From contig NZ_JAHLSY010000004.1 in NCBI RefSeq assembly GCF_019049855.1, forward strand, positions 1 to 64,000: DNA of 64,000 nucleotides, in the 5' to 3' direction. Both the position numbers and the translations under genes were made by a program. Position 1 is the first letter of the stretch, and each line of letters starts with the position of its first letter. Of the stretch, positions 12,844-20,205 are shown piece after piece. The DNA comes from Hydrogenophilus thiooxidans (GTDB lineage: Bacteria > Pseudomonadota > Gammaproteobacteria > Burkholderiales > Rhodocyclaceae). The notes under the pieces were generated by a model. That model was not told where the DNA came from. It was given only the letters and a program-made list of their open reading frames with translations, and did not search any database.

Positions 12844-14223
12844 TTACGCGGTCGGCGCAGCGACCTTGGGGAGATGCGCCAGCGACGCTTCGATTGCCTC
12901 GGCGGGGTATTCGAAGTCTTCGAGTTCGCCGCGTAGGTATTTGTCGTACGCAGAGAGGTCGAAGTGGCCGTGTCCGGTGAGGTTGAAGAGGATCACTTTC
13001 GGCGCTCCGCTCTCTTTGCACGCCAGCGCTTCGTCGATCGCAGCGCGAATCGCGTGGCACGACTCCGGCGCGGGGAGGATCCCTTCGGTGCGGGCAAAGA
13101 GGACCCCTGCTTCGAACGTCGCAACTTGCGGCACCGCACGCGCTTCGAGCAACCCTTCGTGGTAGAGCTGGGAGACAAGGGGCGAATCGCCGTGGTAGCG
13201 AAGACCGCCCGCGTGGATGCCCGGGGGCATGAAGTCGTGCCCGAGCGTATACATCCGCATGAGCGGCGTGAATCCGGAAGCGTCGCCGTAATCGTACGCA
13301 TAAACCCCTTTCGTGAGGGTGGGGCAGGAGGTAGGCTCGACCGCGACGCAGCGCAGGTGCTCCGCCCGTTTGTCTCCTGCGATCTTGTCGGCCAAGAACG
13401 GGAAGGCAATGCCGCCGAAGCTCGAACCACCGCCGCACGGACCCAAGATCACGTCGGGATAAAGCCCCAGCAGTTCGAACTGTTTTTTGGCTTCCAGTCC
13501 GATCACGGTTTGGTGCAGGAGCACGTGGTTGAGGACCGACCCCAAGGTGTAGTTGGTGTCAGCGCGGCTTGCGGCCTCTTCCACCGCTTCGGAGATCGCG
13601 ATGCCGAGCGAGCCGGGGTTGTCGGGTTCGCGTTCGAGGATTGCTCGCCCCGTCTGCGTGTGGGGCGAGGGGCTGGGAAAGACCTCGGCGCCCCACGTCT
13701 GCATGAGGATGCGGCGGTAGGGTTTCTGCTCGTAACTCACTTTCACCATATAGACCCGCACTTCGAGGCCAAATTTCTGGCCGGCGAACGCGATCGAGCT
13801 CCCCCATTGACCGGCACCGGTTTCGGTCGTGAGCCGCTTGATGCCGACCAGTTGGTTGTAGTAGGCCTGAGGAACCGCAGAGTTGGGTTTGTGCGAGCCG
13901 GACGGCGAGACGCCTTCATACTTGAAGAAGAGTTTGGCTGGGGTGCCCAGCGCTTGTTCGAGCCGTACCGCGCGCACAAGCGGTGAAGGGCGCCAGATCC
14001 GGTAGGTTTCGCGTACCGCCTCTGGGATTGGAATCCAGCGCTCGCTGCTCATCTCCTGCGCAAGGAGCGGTTCGGGAAAGATTGCACCCATCTGTTCGGG
14101 CGTCACCGGCTTGCCATCTGGCCCAAGCGGTGGTGCGGGGGGGTTGGGCATGTCGGCGACGATGTTGTACCAGTGAGTCGGGATCTCGTTTTCGGGGAGC
14201 AGGATGCGGGTGGGTTCGGTCAT
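12844..14223 (-). CDS. TrpB-like PLP enzyme (TrpB2 type tryptophan synthase beta subunit)
   Basis: 459 residues from ATG 14223, preceded by GAGGAGA. The PLP lysine lies in GSHKPNSA, the phosphate cradle is [11 protein letters not shown], and the N-terminal extension plus RPSPLVRA are typical of the TrpB2/TIGR01415 group (about 450 residues against 400 for TrpB1). TrpB2 condenses indole and serine to tryptophan, often working without TrpA; some members use phosphoserine. No trpA or other trp gene is next to it. It overlaps the birA-coaX gene by four bases, so it is probably co-translated with cofactor genes. Confidence 0.9.
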
Positions 14224-15809
14224 GATGTCTCCTCGTTGTGTGTTGACGGTGCAGAGGGGCCGGTCGGTGGTTCGGGCGGTGTCTGAGGGGGGTGCGACTC
14301 CGGCTGCGCGCACGCAAGCGCGGCAAGGCCCAGGAAAAGTAAATTATCGCGCACCTCATGCGGGATGTCTACGTGGGGGGAGAGGAGCGGTGCGGCGCCG
14401 CCGTGCAGGATCACGCGCGGCAGGATCGAAGTCTGTTTGGCTACCTGCGCCGTGAATGCCGCGATCGCCCCCTTTTGCGCCAGCCAGACACCGGTGGCGA
14501 TCGCGGTTTCGGTATCGGTGGGGGGAAACGGAGCCGTCGCGATCTGGTCGACGGCGCGGCGCGGGTCGAGCTGTGGGAGTCGCGCGGTGCGGGCTGCGAG
14601 CGCAGCGAACATCGCGTCGATGCCAGGCAGAATCGCGCCACCGCGAAACGCGCCGGTTTCGTCGAGCCAGTCGAGCGTGGTCGCGGTGCCACAACCGACG
14701 ATCACCGCTGGCGCCAACCCAGCGTGCCATGCTCCAACTGCGGTGACCCAGCGATCGGCGCCCAGCTGTTGGGGATTGCGGTACTGGTTAAGGACGCCCG
14801 CACCGTGCTGGCTCGGCGCGATCCAATGGCATGGGATGCGATGCGCGGCAAAGCGGGCAGTGATCGCCTGGGTACGGGACGGTGTGGTGACGCTGACACC
14901 GACGACGCACGGAATCGTGGACAGCAACGGGGTGAGCTGCTGCCACCATGCTTCGAGTGCCGTGTCGTCGTACGCAAACGCCCCTTGCGCGTCGTCCCGC
15001 CAATACCATTTGCCGCGACTGTTTCCCAGATCGAGGAGGAGCGGCACAGGGCGTATGCGCGCGGCGGCGGAGGTCAGCGTCTGGTGTGCCCCTGCCGCAG
15101 TGGTGACCTGGAGTTCCCCCCGGGCGTTGACGCCGCTCAAGCGGACGAGATGCGGTTCTGTCGTTTCGTGCGCGGGCAGCAGTTGCAACCAACGGTCGCG
15201 CCACGCGGCACGGGCCCACCACGCCGCTTGCCAAGGGGTGAAGCCTGCGCCGCAGCGGAAGTCTTCGAGTACGGCAACCACTGCGCCGACCAGCGTCTGC
15301 AGCAGGGTTTCAGCAGGGGGAACGAGCGTGAGGTGCTCGGCAAGCGCGGTGGGGGGCAATGTCCAGGGATCTCGGTCGTCGAGTCGTGGTGCCGCACGAT
15401 GGTTCAGACCGACGCCGACGACGACGATCGGCGGCGCTTGCCCCCGCCATTGCGCTTCGACGAGGATCCCGCCGAGTTTGCGCTCCGCAACGAGCAGATC
15501 GTTCGGCCATTTGAGGCGAACGGGGAGGTCGAGCAGTTCCAATCGTTCGGCAAGCGCCGCGCCCACCGCAAGCGAAAGGCCTTCGAGGTTCGTCTGGGGC
15601 GGGAGGCGGGTTGCCACCGAGAATGCGATTCCGGCACCCTCCGGCATCGTCCAGCGTCGGCCGCTTTGACCGCGGCCCGCGGTCTGCCGTTGGGCGGTGA
15701 CGGCCAGGTAATGGCCGGGAGCGAGGGATTCGGCCTGCTGTCCGGCAACGTCGTTGGTCGACGCGCACGCGTCGAGCGCGAGCCAGTGCAGCGTAGGTGC
15801 GGTTGGCAT
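14220..15809 (-). CDS. birA-coaX: Bifunctional biotin-protein ligase / type III pantothenate kinase fusion
   Basis: 529 residues from ATG 15809. Residues 1-245 are a biotin protein ligase with the biotinyl-AMP loop GRGQSGRRW near residue 45 and KWPNDLLV. The N-terminal DNA-binding helix-turn-helix of E. coli BirA is missing, so it should not act as a repressor. From about residue 255 a CoaX domain begins ([14 protein letters not shown]), with GADRWV and [11 protein letters not shown] as its ATP and substrate motifs. It joins biotin attachment to the first step of CoA synthesis. coaE lies three genes downstream on the same strand. Confidence 0.93.
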
Positions 15810-15852
15810 GGGGTTTGCTATTTGTTCGAACGGATGGGAACAGGAGATAGCG

Positions 15853-16563
15853 ATGAAACAGATTGCGATTGTACGCTTTTCCCCGATCGAAGGGCCGGGA
15901 ACCTTTGCCGATTTCGTCGCAGCGCAAGGAGGGGAAACGCACCTCATCGCGATCGATCAAGGGGCACCGCTTCCGAGGGATCCGGAACAGTATGACGGTT
16001 GGTGCTTGATGGGTGGGCCGATGAGCGTCAATGATCCGTTGCCGTGGATCGAACCCCTCCTTGGGTTGCTCCGCCAGGCGGTGGCCAGTGGGGTGCCCGT
16101 TATCGGTCACTGTCTCGGTGGCCAGCTGTTGGCAAAGGCTTTAGGGGCAACCGTCACGCGCAACCCAACGAAGGAGATTGGATGGGGCGAGGTGTGGGTG
16201 ACCAACCGATCGGAGGGACGACGTTGGCTCGGCGATTGCGAACGCTTTGTGGCGTTTCATTGGCATGGCGAGACTTTTTCACTCCCTGAAGGCGCAATCG
16301 GGTGGCTGGCTAGCGCCCATTGTTCCCAGCAAGCCTTTGCGCTGGGACCGCATTTGGCATTGCAGTGCCACGTGGAGATGACCGAAGCGATGATTGAGCG
16401 CTGGTGCGCCGATTGGGCGAAAGAGGGAGTTGGAGCGAGCGCGTCGGTGCAGACGCCCGAGGCGATCGTCGCGGCGATCCCCGACCATTTACCGCAGCTC
16501 ACGGCGACGGCGATGCGGCTTTACCGGGAATGGTGGCGGGGGGTGTCCGATGTCCGTGCATGA
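15853..16563 (+). CDS. Class I glutamine amidotransferase (GATase1, GMP-synthase-like)
   Basis: 236 residues from ATG 15853, preceded by AGGAGA. The triad is visible: nucleophile Cys87 in GHCLGGQLLAKALG, and His and Glu in CHVEMTE near residue 177. A further FHWHGE motif matches the family of stand-alone GuaA-like amidotransferases (YfeJ type). These hydrolyse glutamine or a gamma-glutamyl compound; the partner or substrate is not known here. Divergent from birA-coaX. Its last bases overlap the EAL remnant. Confidence 0.85.
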   Translation: MKQIAIVRFSPIEGPGTFADFVAAQGGETHLIAIDQGAPLPRDPEQYDGWCLMGGPMSVNDPLPWIEPLLGLLRQAVASGVPVIGHCLGGQLLAKALGATVTRNPTKEIGWGEVWVTNRSEGRRWLGDCERFVAFHWHGETFSLPEGAIGWLASAHCSQQAFALGPHLALQCHVEMTEAMIERWCADWAKEGVGASASVQTPEAIVAAIPDHLPQLTATAMRLYREWWRGVSDVRA

Positions 16564-16738
16564 GCTGACACTGACCAGTTTCGCGCAACCGATTTGGAGC
16601 GTGCCCCACGGTCGTGTGGTGGGATGGGAGGCGCTGTTGCGTGTGCAGGACGGAGCGTGTGTTGGTGCAGTGTGTGCATTTTTTGGGCGCACGGATTCTC
16701 GTCATGCACCGTTTTGGTGCAATGGTGCATCGCAATAA
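16550..16738 (+). pseudogene. Remnant of an EAL-domain gene (N-terminal piece)
   Basis: A 62-codon frame beginning at ATG 16550 reads FAQPIWSVPHGRVVGWEALLR, shown here in part as QPIW and GWEALLR. This is the standard opening of an EAL cyclic-di-GMP phosphodiesterase domain (QPI ... GRVVGxEALLR, with the Glu of EAL as metal ligand). After about 33 residues the likeness stops, and the frame ends at TAA 16736-16738, so over 85 percent of the domain is missing. The NtrC-type site of the next operon lies inside the non-EAL tail. It may be a deletion scar. The identification rests on one motif. Confidence 0.6.
16705..16721. promoter_or_regulatory. NtrC-type binding site (upstream activator)
   Basis: TGCACCGTTTTGGTGCA is a perfect 17-base dyad and matches the NtrC consensus TGCACC-N5-GGTGCA in both halves. 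It lies about 100 bases upstream of the sigma-54 promoter, the usual enhancer distance. A further GGTGCA half-site follows at once (about 16724-16729). Confidence 0.85.
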
Positions 16739-16803
16739 AAGCGGTGCGCTTCATCTGCGCGCACGCTGTGGCGAAATTCGTTGATTTCTCATCATTTTTT
16801 CTT

Positions 16804-16819
16804 TGGCACGCCACTTGCT
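16804..16819 (+). promoter_or_regulatory. Sigma-54 promoter
   Basis: TGGCACG-CCAC-TTGCT fits the RpoN consensus exactly, with GG (16805-16806) and GC (16817-16818) at the required -24/-12 spacing. Transcription would start near 16830 and run into the porin, glnK and amtB genes. Confidence 0.88.
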
Positions 16820-16857
16820 CACCTGAAGTTGCGATTCATGCAACTGAGGAGAAAACC

Positions 16858-17589
16858 ATGAAAGCGAAGGCTTTGGTTCTGGGATGCGGTGCCGTCGCGG
16901 TGGCCGCAGCGCTGTTTTCCCATGGTGCGGCGGCGCAAAGCGCGGTCACCGGCAATGTGGCGTTGGTGAGCGATTACGTCTACCGTGGCTTTTCGCAGAC
17001 CAACGAGAAAGTGGCGTTGCAAGCCAGTGTCGATTGGGTAGGTGCCGACGGTTGGTACGTTGGTCTTTGGGGAACGAACGTTTCCTGGCTCTCCGACGCT
17101 GCGCCGGGCAGTTCCAACAGTGTCGAGCTCGATCTCTACGGCGGCAAGCGCTGGTCGATGGGGGACCTTGCTTTCGACGTCGGCCTGCTCCAGTACTACT
17201 ACCCGGGAAGTTACTCGGTGGCGTGGAAAGCAGCCTCTGGGCTCAAGACGCCTCATACCACCGAGGTCTATGGGGCAGTGGGATACGGGCCGGCGACTTT
17301 CAAAATCTCTTATGCGCTCACCGATCTCTTCGGCGCGCCCCATTCCGATGGCAGTCAATATTACGACCTCACCGTGGCGCCTGAGGTAATGCCTGGCGTG
17401 AAATTGCTGGCCCACGTCGGACGGCAGGTGGTTCGCGGCACAGGCAACGCCGACTATACCGACTGGAAGGTAGGGGTGAGTGCCAGCTACGGCGGATTCG
17501 ATTGGGGGCTTTATTACGTCGACACCAACGTCAGCGGTTCGAAACTTGCCGATTCGCGTGTGGTGTTCAGTGTTGGCAAAACTTTTTGA
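16858..17589 (+). CDS. TorF-family putative outer-membrane porin
   Basis: 243 residues from ATG 16858, preceded by GAGGAG. A signal peptide of about 26 residues ends in GAAAQS. The mature chain is a beta-barrel with alternating aromatic strands, opening with the family motif VTGNVALVSDYVYRGFSQT and closing on Phe (GKTF), the usual outer-membrane insertion signal. This is the TIGR02001 type. Its place at the head of a sigma-54/NtrC-controlled glnK-amtB operon suggests it lets ammonium or small nitrogen compounds cross the outer membrane under nitrogen limitation; that role is inferred from context. Confidence 0.85.
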   Translation: MKAKALVLGCGAVAVAAALFSHGAAAQSAVTGNVALVSDYVYRGFSQTNEKVALQASVDWVGADGWYVGLWGTNVSWLSDAAPGSSNSVELDLYGGKRWSMGDLAFDVGLLQYYYPGSYSVAWKAASGLKTPHTTEVYGAVGYGPATFKISYALTDLFGAPHSDGSQYYDLTVAPEVMPGVKLLAHVGRQVVRGTGNADYTDWKVGVSASYGGFDWGLYYVDTNVSGSKLADSRVVFSVGKTF

Positions 17590-17940
<351 letters not shown>

Positions 17941-17961
17941 GGAATGGATAGGAGCGAAACG

Positions 17962-19200
17962 ATGGAAATGGTGAACAAAGGGGATGTGGCGTGGATGCTC
18001 ACGTCGACGCTTCTGGTGTTGATGATGGTGATGCCTGGGCTCGCACTCTTTTATGGCGGGATGGTGCGGGCGAAAAATGTCCTTTCGGTGCTGATGCAGG
18101 TGATGACCACCTTTGCCCTTGCAGTGGTGCTGTGGGCCATTTATGGCTATTCGCTCGCTTTCACCGAAGGTAACCCGTATTTTGGGTCGTTCGCGAAACT
18201 CTTTTTGAGCGGCGTTACGCTCGAAAGCCTAGCGGATACCTTCAGCGAGGGGGTGAAGCTGCCGGAGATGGCCTTCATCGCGTTTCAAGGAACGTTCGCG
18301 GGCATTACCGCGGCGCTGATCGTCGGCGGGTTTGCGGAACGGATGCGTTTTTCCGCGGTGCTCGTCTTCACGGCGATCTGGCTTACGTTTGCCTATCTGC
18401 CGATCGCCCACATGGTGTGGGGACCAGGTGGTTGGTTGCTGGGCGACGGTGCGCTCGATTTCGCGGGGGGTACGGTCGTGCATATCAACGCGGGGATCGC
18501 CGGTTTGGTCGGCGCGTATCTCGTGGGTAAGCGCATTGGGTACGGCCGTGAGGCGCTGACGCCCCACTCTTTGCCCCTGACGATGGTCGGCGCTTCGCTG
18601 CTTTGGGTGGGCTGGTTCGGGTTCAACGCTGGTTCGGCGCTGGAGGCGAACAGCACCGCAGCGCTCGCGTTCCTGAACACCCTGTTTGCAACCGCAGCGG
18701 CAATTCTCCTCTGGTTGGCGGGTGAGGCGCTCCTCAAGGGGAAACCCTCGATGTTGGGCGGCGCTTCGGGCGCGGTGGCTGGGTTGGTGGCGATCACACC
18801 CGCGGCGGGCACCGTTGGCCCGATGGGCGCACTCGTCATCGGTGCGGCAGCCGGCGTGGTGGGGCTCTGGGGCGTCAACCAGCTGAAGCGGTGGTTGGGT
18901 GTTGACGACGCGCTGGACGTCTTCGGTGTGCATGGGGTTTGTGGGATCGTCGGTGCATTACTCACAGGGGTGTTTACCGCACCGTCGCTGGGTGGTACCG
19001 GTAGCGCCGATTTTTCGATTGCGTCGCAACTCGTAATCCAGGCCAAAGGGGTAATCGTCACATTGGTTTGGTCCGGCGTGGTCTCGTTCGTTGCTTACAA
19101 AATCGCGGCGGCGCTTACGGGTGGTTTGCGCGTCGCGGAAGAGGAGGAGCGCGAAGGGCTCGATATCGTGGCGCACGGGGAAAGCGGCTACCGCTTCTGA
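17962..19200 (+). CDS. amtB: Ammonium transporter
   Basis: 412 residues with eleven predicted membrane helices. The pore histidines are in YLPIAHMVWGP and DVFGVHGVCGIVGALLTGVF, matching the twin-His site of Amt/Rh channels, and the first helix includes LFYGGMVRAKN. ATG 17962 has AGGAGCG seven bases upstream and is preferred over ATG 17944. Expected product: inner-membrane trimer importing ammonium, gated by GlnK encoded just upstream. A strong terminator follows. Confidence 0.95.
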   Translation: MEMVNKGDVAWMLTSTLLVLMMVMPGLALFYGGMVRAKNVLSVLMQVMTTFALAVVLWAIYGYSLAFTEGNPYFGSFAKLFLSGVTLESLADTFSEGVKLPEMAFIAFQGTFAGITAALIVGGFAERMRFSAVLVFTAIWLTFAYLPIAHMVWGPGGWLLGDGALDFAGGTVVHINAGIAGLVGAYLVGKRIGYGREALTPHSLPLTMVGASLLWVGWFGFNAGSALEANSTAALAFLNTLFATAAAILLWLAGEALLKGKPSMLGGASGAVAGLVAITPAAGTVGPMGALVIGAAAGVVGLWGVNQLKRWLGVDDALDVFGVHGVCGIVGALLTGVFTAPSLGGTGSADFSIASQLVIQAKGVIVTLVWSGVVSFVAYKIAAALTGGLRVAEEEEREGLDIVAHGESGYRF

Positions 19201-19224
19201 TTCCTCCTCTGCAGCGAGCAGAGT

Positions 19225-20205
19225 TCATTCTCGTTGCGTTTGCCCCTTGCGGGATTCCCCGCAAGGGGCTTTTTCGTGGAGCGCACGGTGGCGGACCAGT
19301 ACCCGTGCCGATGGGATGAACCGGGCGGCCAAGCGTTCGACGAGGTAAACCGAGCGGTGTTGTCCCCCGGTGCACCCGATCGCGACGGTGAGATAGCTGC
19401 GCTGTTCTGCGGTGTAATGGGGAAGCCAGCGGGTGATGAAATCCGCAATATCCGCTTCCATCCGGGTGACCAAAGGCTGCGCGGCAAGAAACGCCTGAAC
19501 CGGTGCATCGCACCCCGTGAGCGGGCGCAGTGTCGGATCGTAATAGGGGTTGGGGAGACAGCGGGCGTCGAAGAGCAGATCGGCGTCGAGCGGCACGCCT
19601 TGTTTGAACGCGAACGATTCGAAGGTAAGGGTGAGCGGCGCGCGCGGGGCGCCGTCGGGGGGGAGCCATTCCCGCAGATATCGGCGCAACTGTTGCGCGG
19701 AGAGGTGACTGGTGTCGAGGCGTTGGGCGGCTTGCGCGATGGGTTCCAGACGATGCCGTTCGCGTGCGATCGCTTCTTCGACGGTCATCGTGCCCGTGGC
19801 GAGCGGATGCGCACGGCGGGTTTCCGAAAAGCGGGCAAGCAACACGTCGTCGCGTGCGTCGAGAAAGAGCGCGTCTGGGGCGATACCGGTGCGCTGCGTC
19901 AGTTCGGCGAGCGCTTCGGGGAGCGCGTCGAGGTTGCCGCTGCGGATGTCGACCGCGACTGCGATCCCTTCCCGCCGCTCCGCCGAAGGGGTAGCGAGCG
20001 CGTGGTGGAGGATGTGGGTCACCACCGGAACGAGGAACGGAACCGGCAAGTTGTCGAGCGCGATGAAACCGCTGTCTTCGAGCGCGCGCAGCGCGACCGT
20101 CTTGCCGGCACCGGAGACGCCGCTCACGACGACGATACGCGGTGGCCGCGGCGCCGTGGTCGCGGCTAAGCCGTTTGCTGAAACATTCACTGCGGTTCGC
20201 GCCAT
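19225..20205 (-). CDS. rapZ: RNase adapter protein RapZ
   Basis: 326 residues. The N-terminal kinase-like domain has Walker A VSGVSGAGKT and the motif ALDNLPVPF. The C-terminal domain has SFAFKQGVP, DARCLPNP, YDPTLRPLTG and GCTGGQHRSV, all hallmark RapZ stretches. In enterobacteria RapZ senses glucosamine-6-phosphate and delivers sRNA GlmZ to RNase E; in betaproteobacteria the target is less clear. No hprK or ptsN gene is adjacent. The last codons read through the amtB terminator stem. The start overlaps the end of the upstream thioredoxin-like gene by 19 bases. Confidence 0.93.
   Translation of the reverse strand: MARTAVNVSANGLAATTAPRPPRIVVVSGVSGAGKTVALRALEDSGFIALDNLPVPFLVPVVTHILHHALATPSAERREGIAVAVDIRSGNLDALPEALAELTQRTGIAPDALFLDARDDVLLARFSETRRAHPLATGTMTVEEAIARERHRLEPIAQAAQRLDTSHLSAQQLRRYLREWLPPDGAPRAPLTLTFESFAFKQGVPLDADLLFDARCLPNPYYDPTLRPLTGCDAPVQAFLAAQPLVTRMEADIADFITRWLPHYTAEQRSYLTVAIGCTGGQHRSVYLVERLAARFIPSARVLVRHRALHEKAPCGESRKGQTQRE
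19243..19274 (+). terminator. Rho-independent terminator after amtB
   Basis: An 11-base perfect stem (CCCCTTGCGGG / CCCGCAAGGGG), loop ATTC, then CTTTTTC. It lies inside the 3' end of the convergent rapZ gene and ends the porin-glnK-amtB unit. Confidence 0.85.

Follow-up and report, generated by a model that had tools for sequence, protein, structure and literature searches.

A predicted NtrC- and sigma-54-dependent promoter ahead of a TorF porin-glnK-amtB operon in Hydrogenophilus thiooxidans

Background

In enterobacteria, the glnK-amtB operon is under the control of NtrC and sigma-54. Herbaspirillum seropedicae reportedly carries an nlmA(orf1)-glnK-amtB operon, said to have been described by Noindorf in 2006. 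Here we analyze an operon of the same gene order, in which a gene for a TorF porin precedes glnK and amtB, together with the promoter ahead of it. The operon lies in a stretch of 64,000 nucleotides of Hydrogenophilus thiooxidans DNA (contig NZ_JAHLSY010000004.1, positions 1 to 64,000), which is referred to as the window.

According to PMC3023670, the H. seropedicae operon is NtrC-dependent and amtB::lacZ expression was 21 times higher under nitrogen limitation; NlmA was found in membrane extracts, yet it was placed most probably in the periplasm. The word porin is missing from the main text of that paper. The annotation given in PMC6646362 places Hsero_0083 at 98251:99039, glnK at 99052:99390 and amtB at 99406:100938. 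A table in the same source lists these three genes as up 15-, 43- and 20-fold, respectively, in rice roots, and Hsero_0083 is described there as a membrane protein of unknown function.

Results and discussion

The predicted promoter of the porin-glnK-amtB operon

We consider it very likely that an NtrC/sigma-54 promoter drives the porin-glnK-amtB operon of the window, and that this operon is the equivalent of nlmA-glnK-amtB in H. seropedicae. An earlier note on this DNA had claimed a perfect 17-base NtrC dyad and a perfect -24/-12 element in the correct spacing, with an outer-membrane TorF porin, glnK and amtB downstream. Both elements were confirmed, at 16705-16721 and 16804-16819, respectively, and the position at which the note ended its interval, 16858, is the first base of the porin start codon (ATG). 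The assignment of this promoter to the three genes is supported by the sites themselves, by the gene order and by recurrence in relatives. The starts of the dyad and the -24/-12 element are 99 bp apart, and the distance from the dyad centre to the GG of the -24 box is 92 bp. Relative to an estimated (unmapped) transcript start near 16830, the main dyad is found at about -117, within the approximately 100-150 bp upstream used as a criterion for NtrC-activated sigma-54 promoters. In a genus-mate of H. thiooxidans, both the dyad and the -24/-12 element are identical to those of the window, and other leader positions differ. A second, weaker NtrC site, as listed for the window in Table 1, is also present in several homologous promoters.

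The three genes lie on the same strand, with a porin gene of 732 bp including the stop codon and a gap of 21 bp between glnK and the amtB start at 17962. The features of the locus are listed in Table 1. Terminator-like sites overall were not above chance (4 found vs 3.9 expected), and the stem that we regard as the likely operon end has the most pairs among them. No Rfam family reached its gathering score in 16400-19400.

Table 1. Promoter elements and genes of the porin-glnK-amtB locus, in window coordinates
Feature	Position	Strand	Remarks
Weaker second NtrC-like dyad	16675-16691	.	3 mismatches; precedes the main dyad by 30 bp
Main NtrC dyad TGCACCGTTTTGGTGCA	16705-16721	.	Perfect; 12/12 fixed bases of TGCACC-N5-GGTGCA
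Sigma-54 -24/-12 element TGGCACGCCACTTGCT	16804-16819	+	Perfect fit to TGGCAC-N5-TTGCW
TorF/Gcw_chp gene (TIGR02001, PF09694)	16858-17589	+	243 aa; predicted 12-strand outer-membrane barrel; probable NlmA counterpart
glnK, P-II protein	17602-17940	+	12 bp past the porin stop
amtB, ammonium transporter	17962-19200	+	Alternative in-frame ATG at 17944
Intrinsic-terminator-like stem	19242-19269	+	12 pairs, then T-run; likely operon end

Functionless chance matches were weighed as an alternative explanation of the promoter motifs using the whole genome (2.31 Mb in 71 contigs), with chance figures calculated from base composition at a guanine plus cytosine content set at 0.63. Two perfect NtrC dyads were observed vs about 0.26 expected, and nine perfect -24/-12 elements vs 2.0 expected. 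The -24/-12 pattern with at most one mismatch was not enriched (44+47 matches vs 47+42 for the reversed control), which favors chance, and thus it is the perfect element and the pair that carry the weight. The second perfect dyad, at position 989 of contig C7, points in the same direction, as it has no -24/-12 match with up to two mismatches within 260 bp. However, a correctly spaced pair of perfect elements is expected about 2e-5 times per 2.31 Mb, the two are both perfect at one place only, which is the porin-glnK-amtB promoter, and their counterparts recur in homologous promoters. Altogether, a chance origin of these motifs is extremely improbable.

Three of the nine perfect -24/-12 elements have NtrC-like sites with up to three mismatches 30-220 bp upstream, namely those of the porin gene, glnA, and a gene for a solute-binding protein of the NMT1_2 family. 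The glnA promoter combines a perfect -24/-12 element with dyads of one, two and two mismatches; it has the architecture of the porin promoter and serves as an internal positive control. The NMT1_2-family gene has a perfect -24/-12 element (C1:156103-156118) and two dyads with two mismatches each, and judging from these sites it is a likely further NtrC target. Altogether, 11 dyads with at most one mismatch were found in the genome, and the surroundings of ten of them were inspected; the remaining one, C71:34350, has none of the nine perfect -24/-12 elements nearby. Both regulators are encoded in the genome: a reading frame matched NtrC with 609.5 bits (curated cut-off 558.6), and RpoN is also present. 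The genome has three P-II genes by our search, and the window porin was the only PF09694 gene found.

A remnant of an EAL-domain gene (62 codons, 16550-16738, plus strand) lies upstream of the operon, to which it does not belong, and extends into the NtrC and promoter region. Its counterpart in the genus-mate is a full-length EAL gene (about 386 aa), and the window lacks about 1.05 kb relative to the genus-mate, with the NtrC region retained. Further upstream, a single long frame on the minus strand (14220-15947) presumably combines a biotin-protein ligase with a type III pantothenate kinase.

Recurrence of the operon and its promoter motifs in relatives

Two sets of loci were used for comparison. 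In the sample of the taxonomic class, we examined 89 loci (29 besides the window's own and 60 from further down the list, drawn from the stronger, listed matches); one overlapping row was skipped and two duplicate genes from a pair of overlapping loci were removed, which resulted in 90 TorF genes, 88 of them with more than 450 bp downstream. The second set consists of the best 80 of 344 loci, eight of which are identical in protein to loci of the class sample; 75 had enough downstream sequence. It was found with a narrow alignment of ten porins, since a wider one of 26, most of them glnK-linked, proved too heterogeneous for scanning. A TorF homologue was identified in 132 of 274 genomes of the class sample. 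The TorF gene is followed by glnK in 48/88 cases in the class sample and in 46/75 in the second set, although both sets were ranked by similarity to glnK-linked proteins, which biases any comparison of linkage, and they are not independent of each other.

Within the window's own family, a homologue is present in 39 of 41 genomes (own included), and the order porin-glnK-amt is found in 15 of the 19 family loci besides the window's own. All 19 have amt either beside the porin gene or beyond glnK. At the level of the order, a TorF query from Noviherbaspirillum has matches in 243 of 399 genomes, and the gene is glnK-linked in 25 of the 30 loci inspected; a Noviherbaspirillum locus itself has the gene order TIGR02001-glnK-amt. 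A tree built from 148 proteins places the window protein as sister to one from Thauera (54% identity over 223 columns; support of 96 in the Shimodaira-Hasegawa-like approximate likelihood ratio test). The glnK label requires 25 changes on this tree vs 46.5 in shuffles, none of 500 shuffles being as low. A scan of viral contigs with the porin gave no relative.

The promoter motifs recur together with the genes. The glnK-linked TorF genes numbered 90 after removal of duplicates, counting that of the window, and the 87 with at least 300 bp upstream were compared with Markov shuffles. For these sequences, a -24/-12 match was defined as TGGCAY-N6-TGCW without mismatch, an NtrC dyad was allowed up to two mismatches, and a pair was required to have its starts 60-150 bp apart. 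The -24/-12 match is present in 74/87 genes (0.10 in shuffles), the dyad in 71/87 (2.70), and the spaced pair in 59/87 (0.00), with 22 of the 59 pairs 110-113 bp apart. Six TorF genes are associated with amt in the absence of glnK, and none of the five with enough upstream sequence carries these sites.

The link to NlmA was made through a single-contig genome of 5.5 Mb (G488) whose TorF gene, starting at 95952, is followed by glnK and amtB. Both the gaps (12 and 15 bp) and the glnK length (339 bp) are exactly the published H. seropedicae values. From these gene gaps and the glnK length we infer that the genome belongs to Herbaspirillum. Its TorF gene has 780 bp vs the 789 bp published, matches TIGR02001 with 161.1 bits, and encodes a protein 41% identical to that of the window. 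Because this genome, with the exact published gaps, carries TIGR02001 at that place, and with it standing in for the NlmA sequence, we consider it very probable that NlmA belongs to the TorF family.

Predicted structure of the TorF barrel

The identification of the first gene product as a putative TorF-family porin, along the lines proposed earlier, is upheld by scores above the cut-offs (TIGR02001, 176.9 bits vs 47.15; PF09694, 165.8 bits vs 24) and by the predicted barrel fold. An AlphaFold2 model built from 26 sequences (mean predicted local distance difference test 83.5, predicted template modelling score 0.80) has 12 main strands and one further strand of three residues. The top Foldseek match is an oligogalacturonate porin (8xua), and KdgM (4pr7) is found at rank 22 among other barrels. 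In VIA-align, the best matches were KdgM (4fqe) and NanC (2wjq) at Z scores of 17.6 and 16.6, with root-mean-square deviations of 2.2-2.7 over 162-178 residues at 6-7% identity. The sole match in a sequence search of solved structures, to Porin D, was weak (E 0.1). Thus, the window TorF is predicted by modelling to be a transmembrane beta barrel closest to the KdgM and NanC porins.

These results bear on an alternative in which NlmA/TorF is not a pore and instead assists AmtB/GlnK signalling from the periplasm or in association with a membrane, in line with the periplasmic placement favored for NlmA. The C-terminal residue of the porin is Phe, the model is a 12-strand barrel with KdgM and NanC as the nearest solved folds, and the NlmA product was recovered in membrane extracts (PMC3023670), all of which argue against such an accessory role and make it unlikely.

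Residues E90 and D92 occur without exception in the glnK-linked (89 rows), other (45) and urt (6) groups, and E136 in 98-100% of the rows. The alternation with hydrophobic residues suggests that E90, D92 and Y94 face the lumen. An acidic, ammonium-specific constriction of glnK-linked TorF was considered and dropped, since the acidic residues are equally conserved in unlinked TorF. The net charge of the barrel is -5 in the window and -2 in the Herbaspirillum-like genome, compared with a median of -22 for glnK-linked proteins, which places both among the least acidic.

TorF genes beside other nitrogen genes

Where the downstream sequence was long enough, 63 unique TorF genes were linked to neither glnK nor amt. 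In four of them, TorF is directly upstream of urtA (TIGR03407 above cut-off), and in two others it is divergent from an urtA-like gene that is cut by the locus end, so that the part inside is limited to 39 and 44 residues, close to the N-terminus of UrtA. In one further locus, a two-unit TorF gene precedes glnA. All seven of these urtA- or glnA-adjacent TorF genes carry -24/-12 matches. In addition, two Lysobacteraceae loci have glnA upstream of torF-glnK. For most of the 63 unlinked genes, no nitrogen gene was recognised in the stretch read, and the association with nitrogen genes is a tendency and not a rule.

Eleven single frames of 444-492 aa resemble tandems of two TorF units, and Pfam bears this out in the case of L064 and L075; such proteins may form either two barrels or a single large one. 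A -24/-12 match is present in 7/11 of these tandem frames and absent from two (L072 and L082), and the other two (L141 and L160) end at the locus edge.

The seven urtA and glnA neighborhoods described above favor a broader role, in which the porin is an outer-membrane protein of nitrogen starvation in general (serving urea, amides or amines) that shares the glnK-amtB promoter since all of these functions are needed when nitrogen is short. The listing of Shewanella torF as a 'TMAO reductase system outer membrane porin' in PMC5955497 (TMAO, trimethylamine N-oxide) agrees with such a role. On the other hand, linkage to glnK is far commoner in our sets, with the bias from similarity ranking noted above, and amt accompanies the porin in all 19 family loci inspected besides the window's own. 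We regard the broader role as a serious possibility that falls short of being probable.

Proposed function of the operon

Under nitrogen limitation, phosphorylated NtrC would bind the main dyad (16705-16721) together with the weaker one that precedes it by 30 bp, and would activate sigma-54 RNA polymerase at 16804-16819. A single transcript would then encode the TorF/NlmA barrel, glnK and amtB, and end at the stem-loop 19242-19269. The dependence on NtrC and the induction by nitrogen limitation are presumed for the window operon by analogy with H. seropedicae. It is possible, although somewhat doubtful, that TorF forms a channel in the outer membrane, through which more ammonium or other small nitrogen solutes can enter when these are scarce. 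The urtA and glnA neighbors of TorF genes, with their sigma-54 sites, support outer-membrane channels of nitrogen limitation without being proof. The earlier suggestion, that ammonium passes the two membranes in a coordinated way, is plausible as a hypothesis. More tentatively, TorF barrels including NlmA may be dedicated channels for small nitrogen solutes, and may have come repeatedly under NtrC/sigma-54 control next to the inner-membrane importer of the same solute (AmtB in the case of ammonium, UrtABCDE in that of urea), which would make the outer membrane a regulated barrier at low ammonium.

Several results weigh against this interpretation as a whole or against its ammonium-specific part. 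Among the glnK-linked genes, 13/87 have no -24/-12 match and 28/87 no spaced pair, and in four of the 19 family loci amt is upstream of the porin gene on the same strand, with no glnK after the porin. Some TorF genes that lack both glnK and amt nearby also carry -24/-12 matches (25/59), NtrC sites (14/59) and spaced pairs (10/59), and hence such control is not peculiar to ammonium. The acidic residues, being family-wide, are no mark of an ammonium channel, and nothing in the low net acidity of the window and Herbaspirillum-like barrels points to selectivity for cations. Nor can a substrate be read from a predicted barrel. Finally, no sigma-70-like site was found vs 0.6 expected, a result that says little.

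Comparison with known systems

What our analysis adds is the assignment of NlmA, very probably, as a TorF barrel, and the recurrence of TorF-family members, along with sigma-54 sites, next to genes for ammonium, urea and glutamine synthetase. Among the open-access literature matches listed, we saw neither NlmA described as a TorF porin nor a link between TorF and urt. The Pfam label of PF09694 is still 'protein of unknown function', and the nitrogen link gives a testable question, namely whether the outer membrane limits the entry of ammonium or urea.

The 12-strand porins KdgM and NanC resemble the window barrel in predicted fold and differ from it in sequence, at the low identity given above; KdgM is known for oligogalacturonate and NanC for sialic acid. 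The enterobacterial glnK-amtB operon has the same NtrC/sigma-54 control and differs in having no TorF gene, as in E. coli, whose genome was used as a control and gave no PF09694 match; thus the barrel is not required for AmtB systems in general. In a review, the fmdCABDEF genes of Methylophilus methylotrophus are presented as encoding an outer-membrane porin with an amide/urea uptake system, repressed by high ammonia. By this description, they resemble the window operon in combining an outer-membrane porin with a nitrogen-source uptake system, and differ in serving amides and urea.

For H. seropedicae nlmA-glnK-amtB, the gene order is the same, the gap from the first gene to glnK is 12 bp in both operons, and NtrC control was reported there. 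The differences are the length of the first gene (789 bp vs 732 bp in the window) and the periplasmic location drawn for NlmA. The porin-glnK-amtB arrangement is a recurring one of a previously published kind, and the window provides a further example of it.
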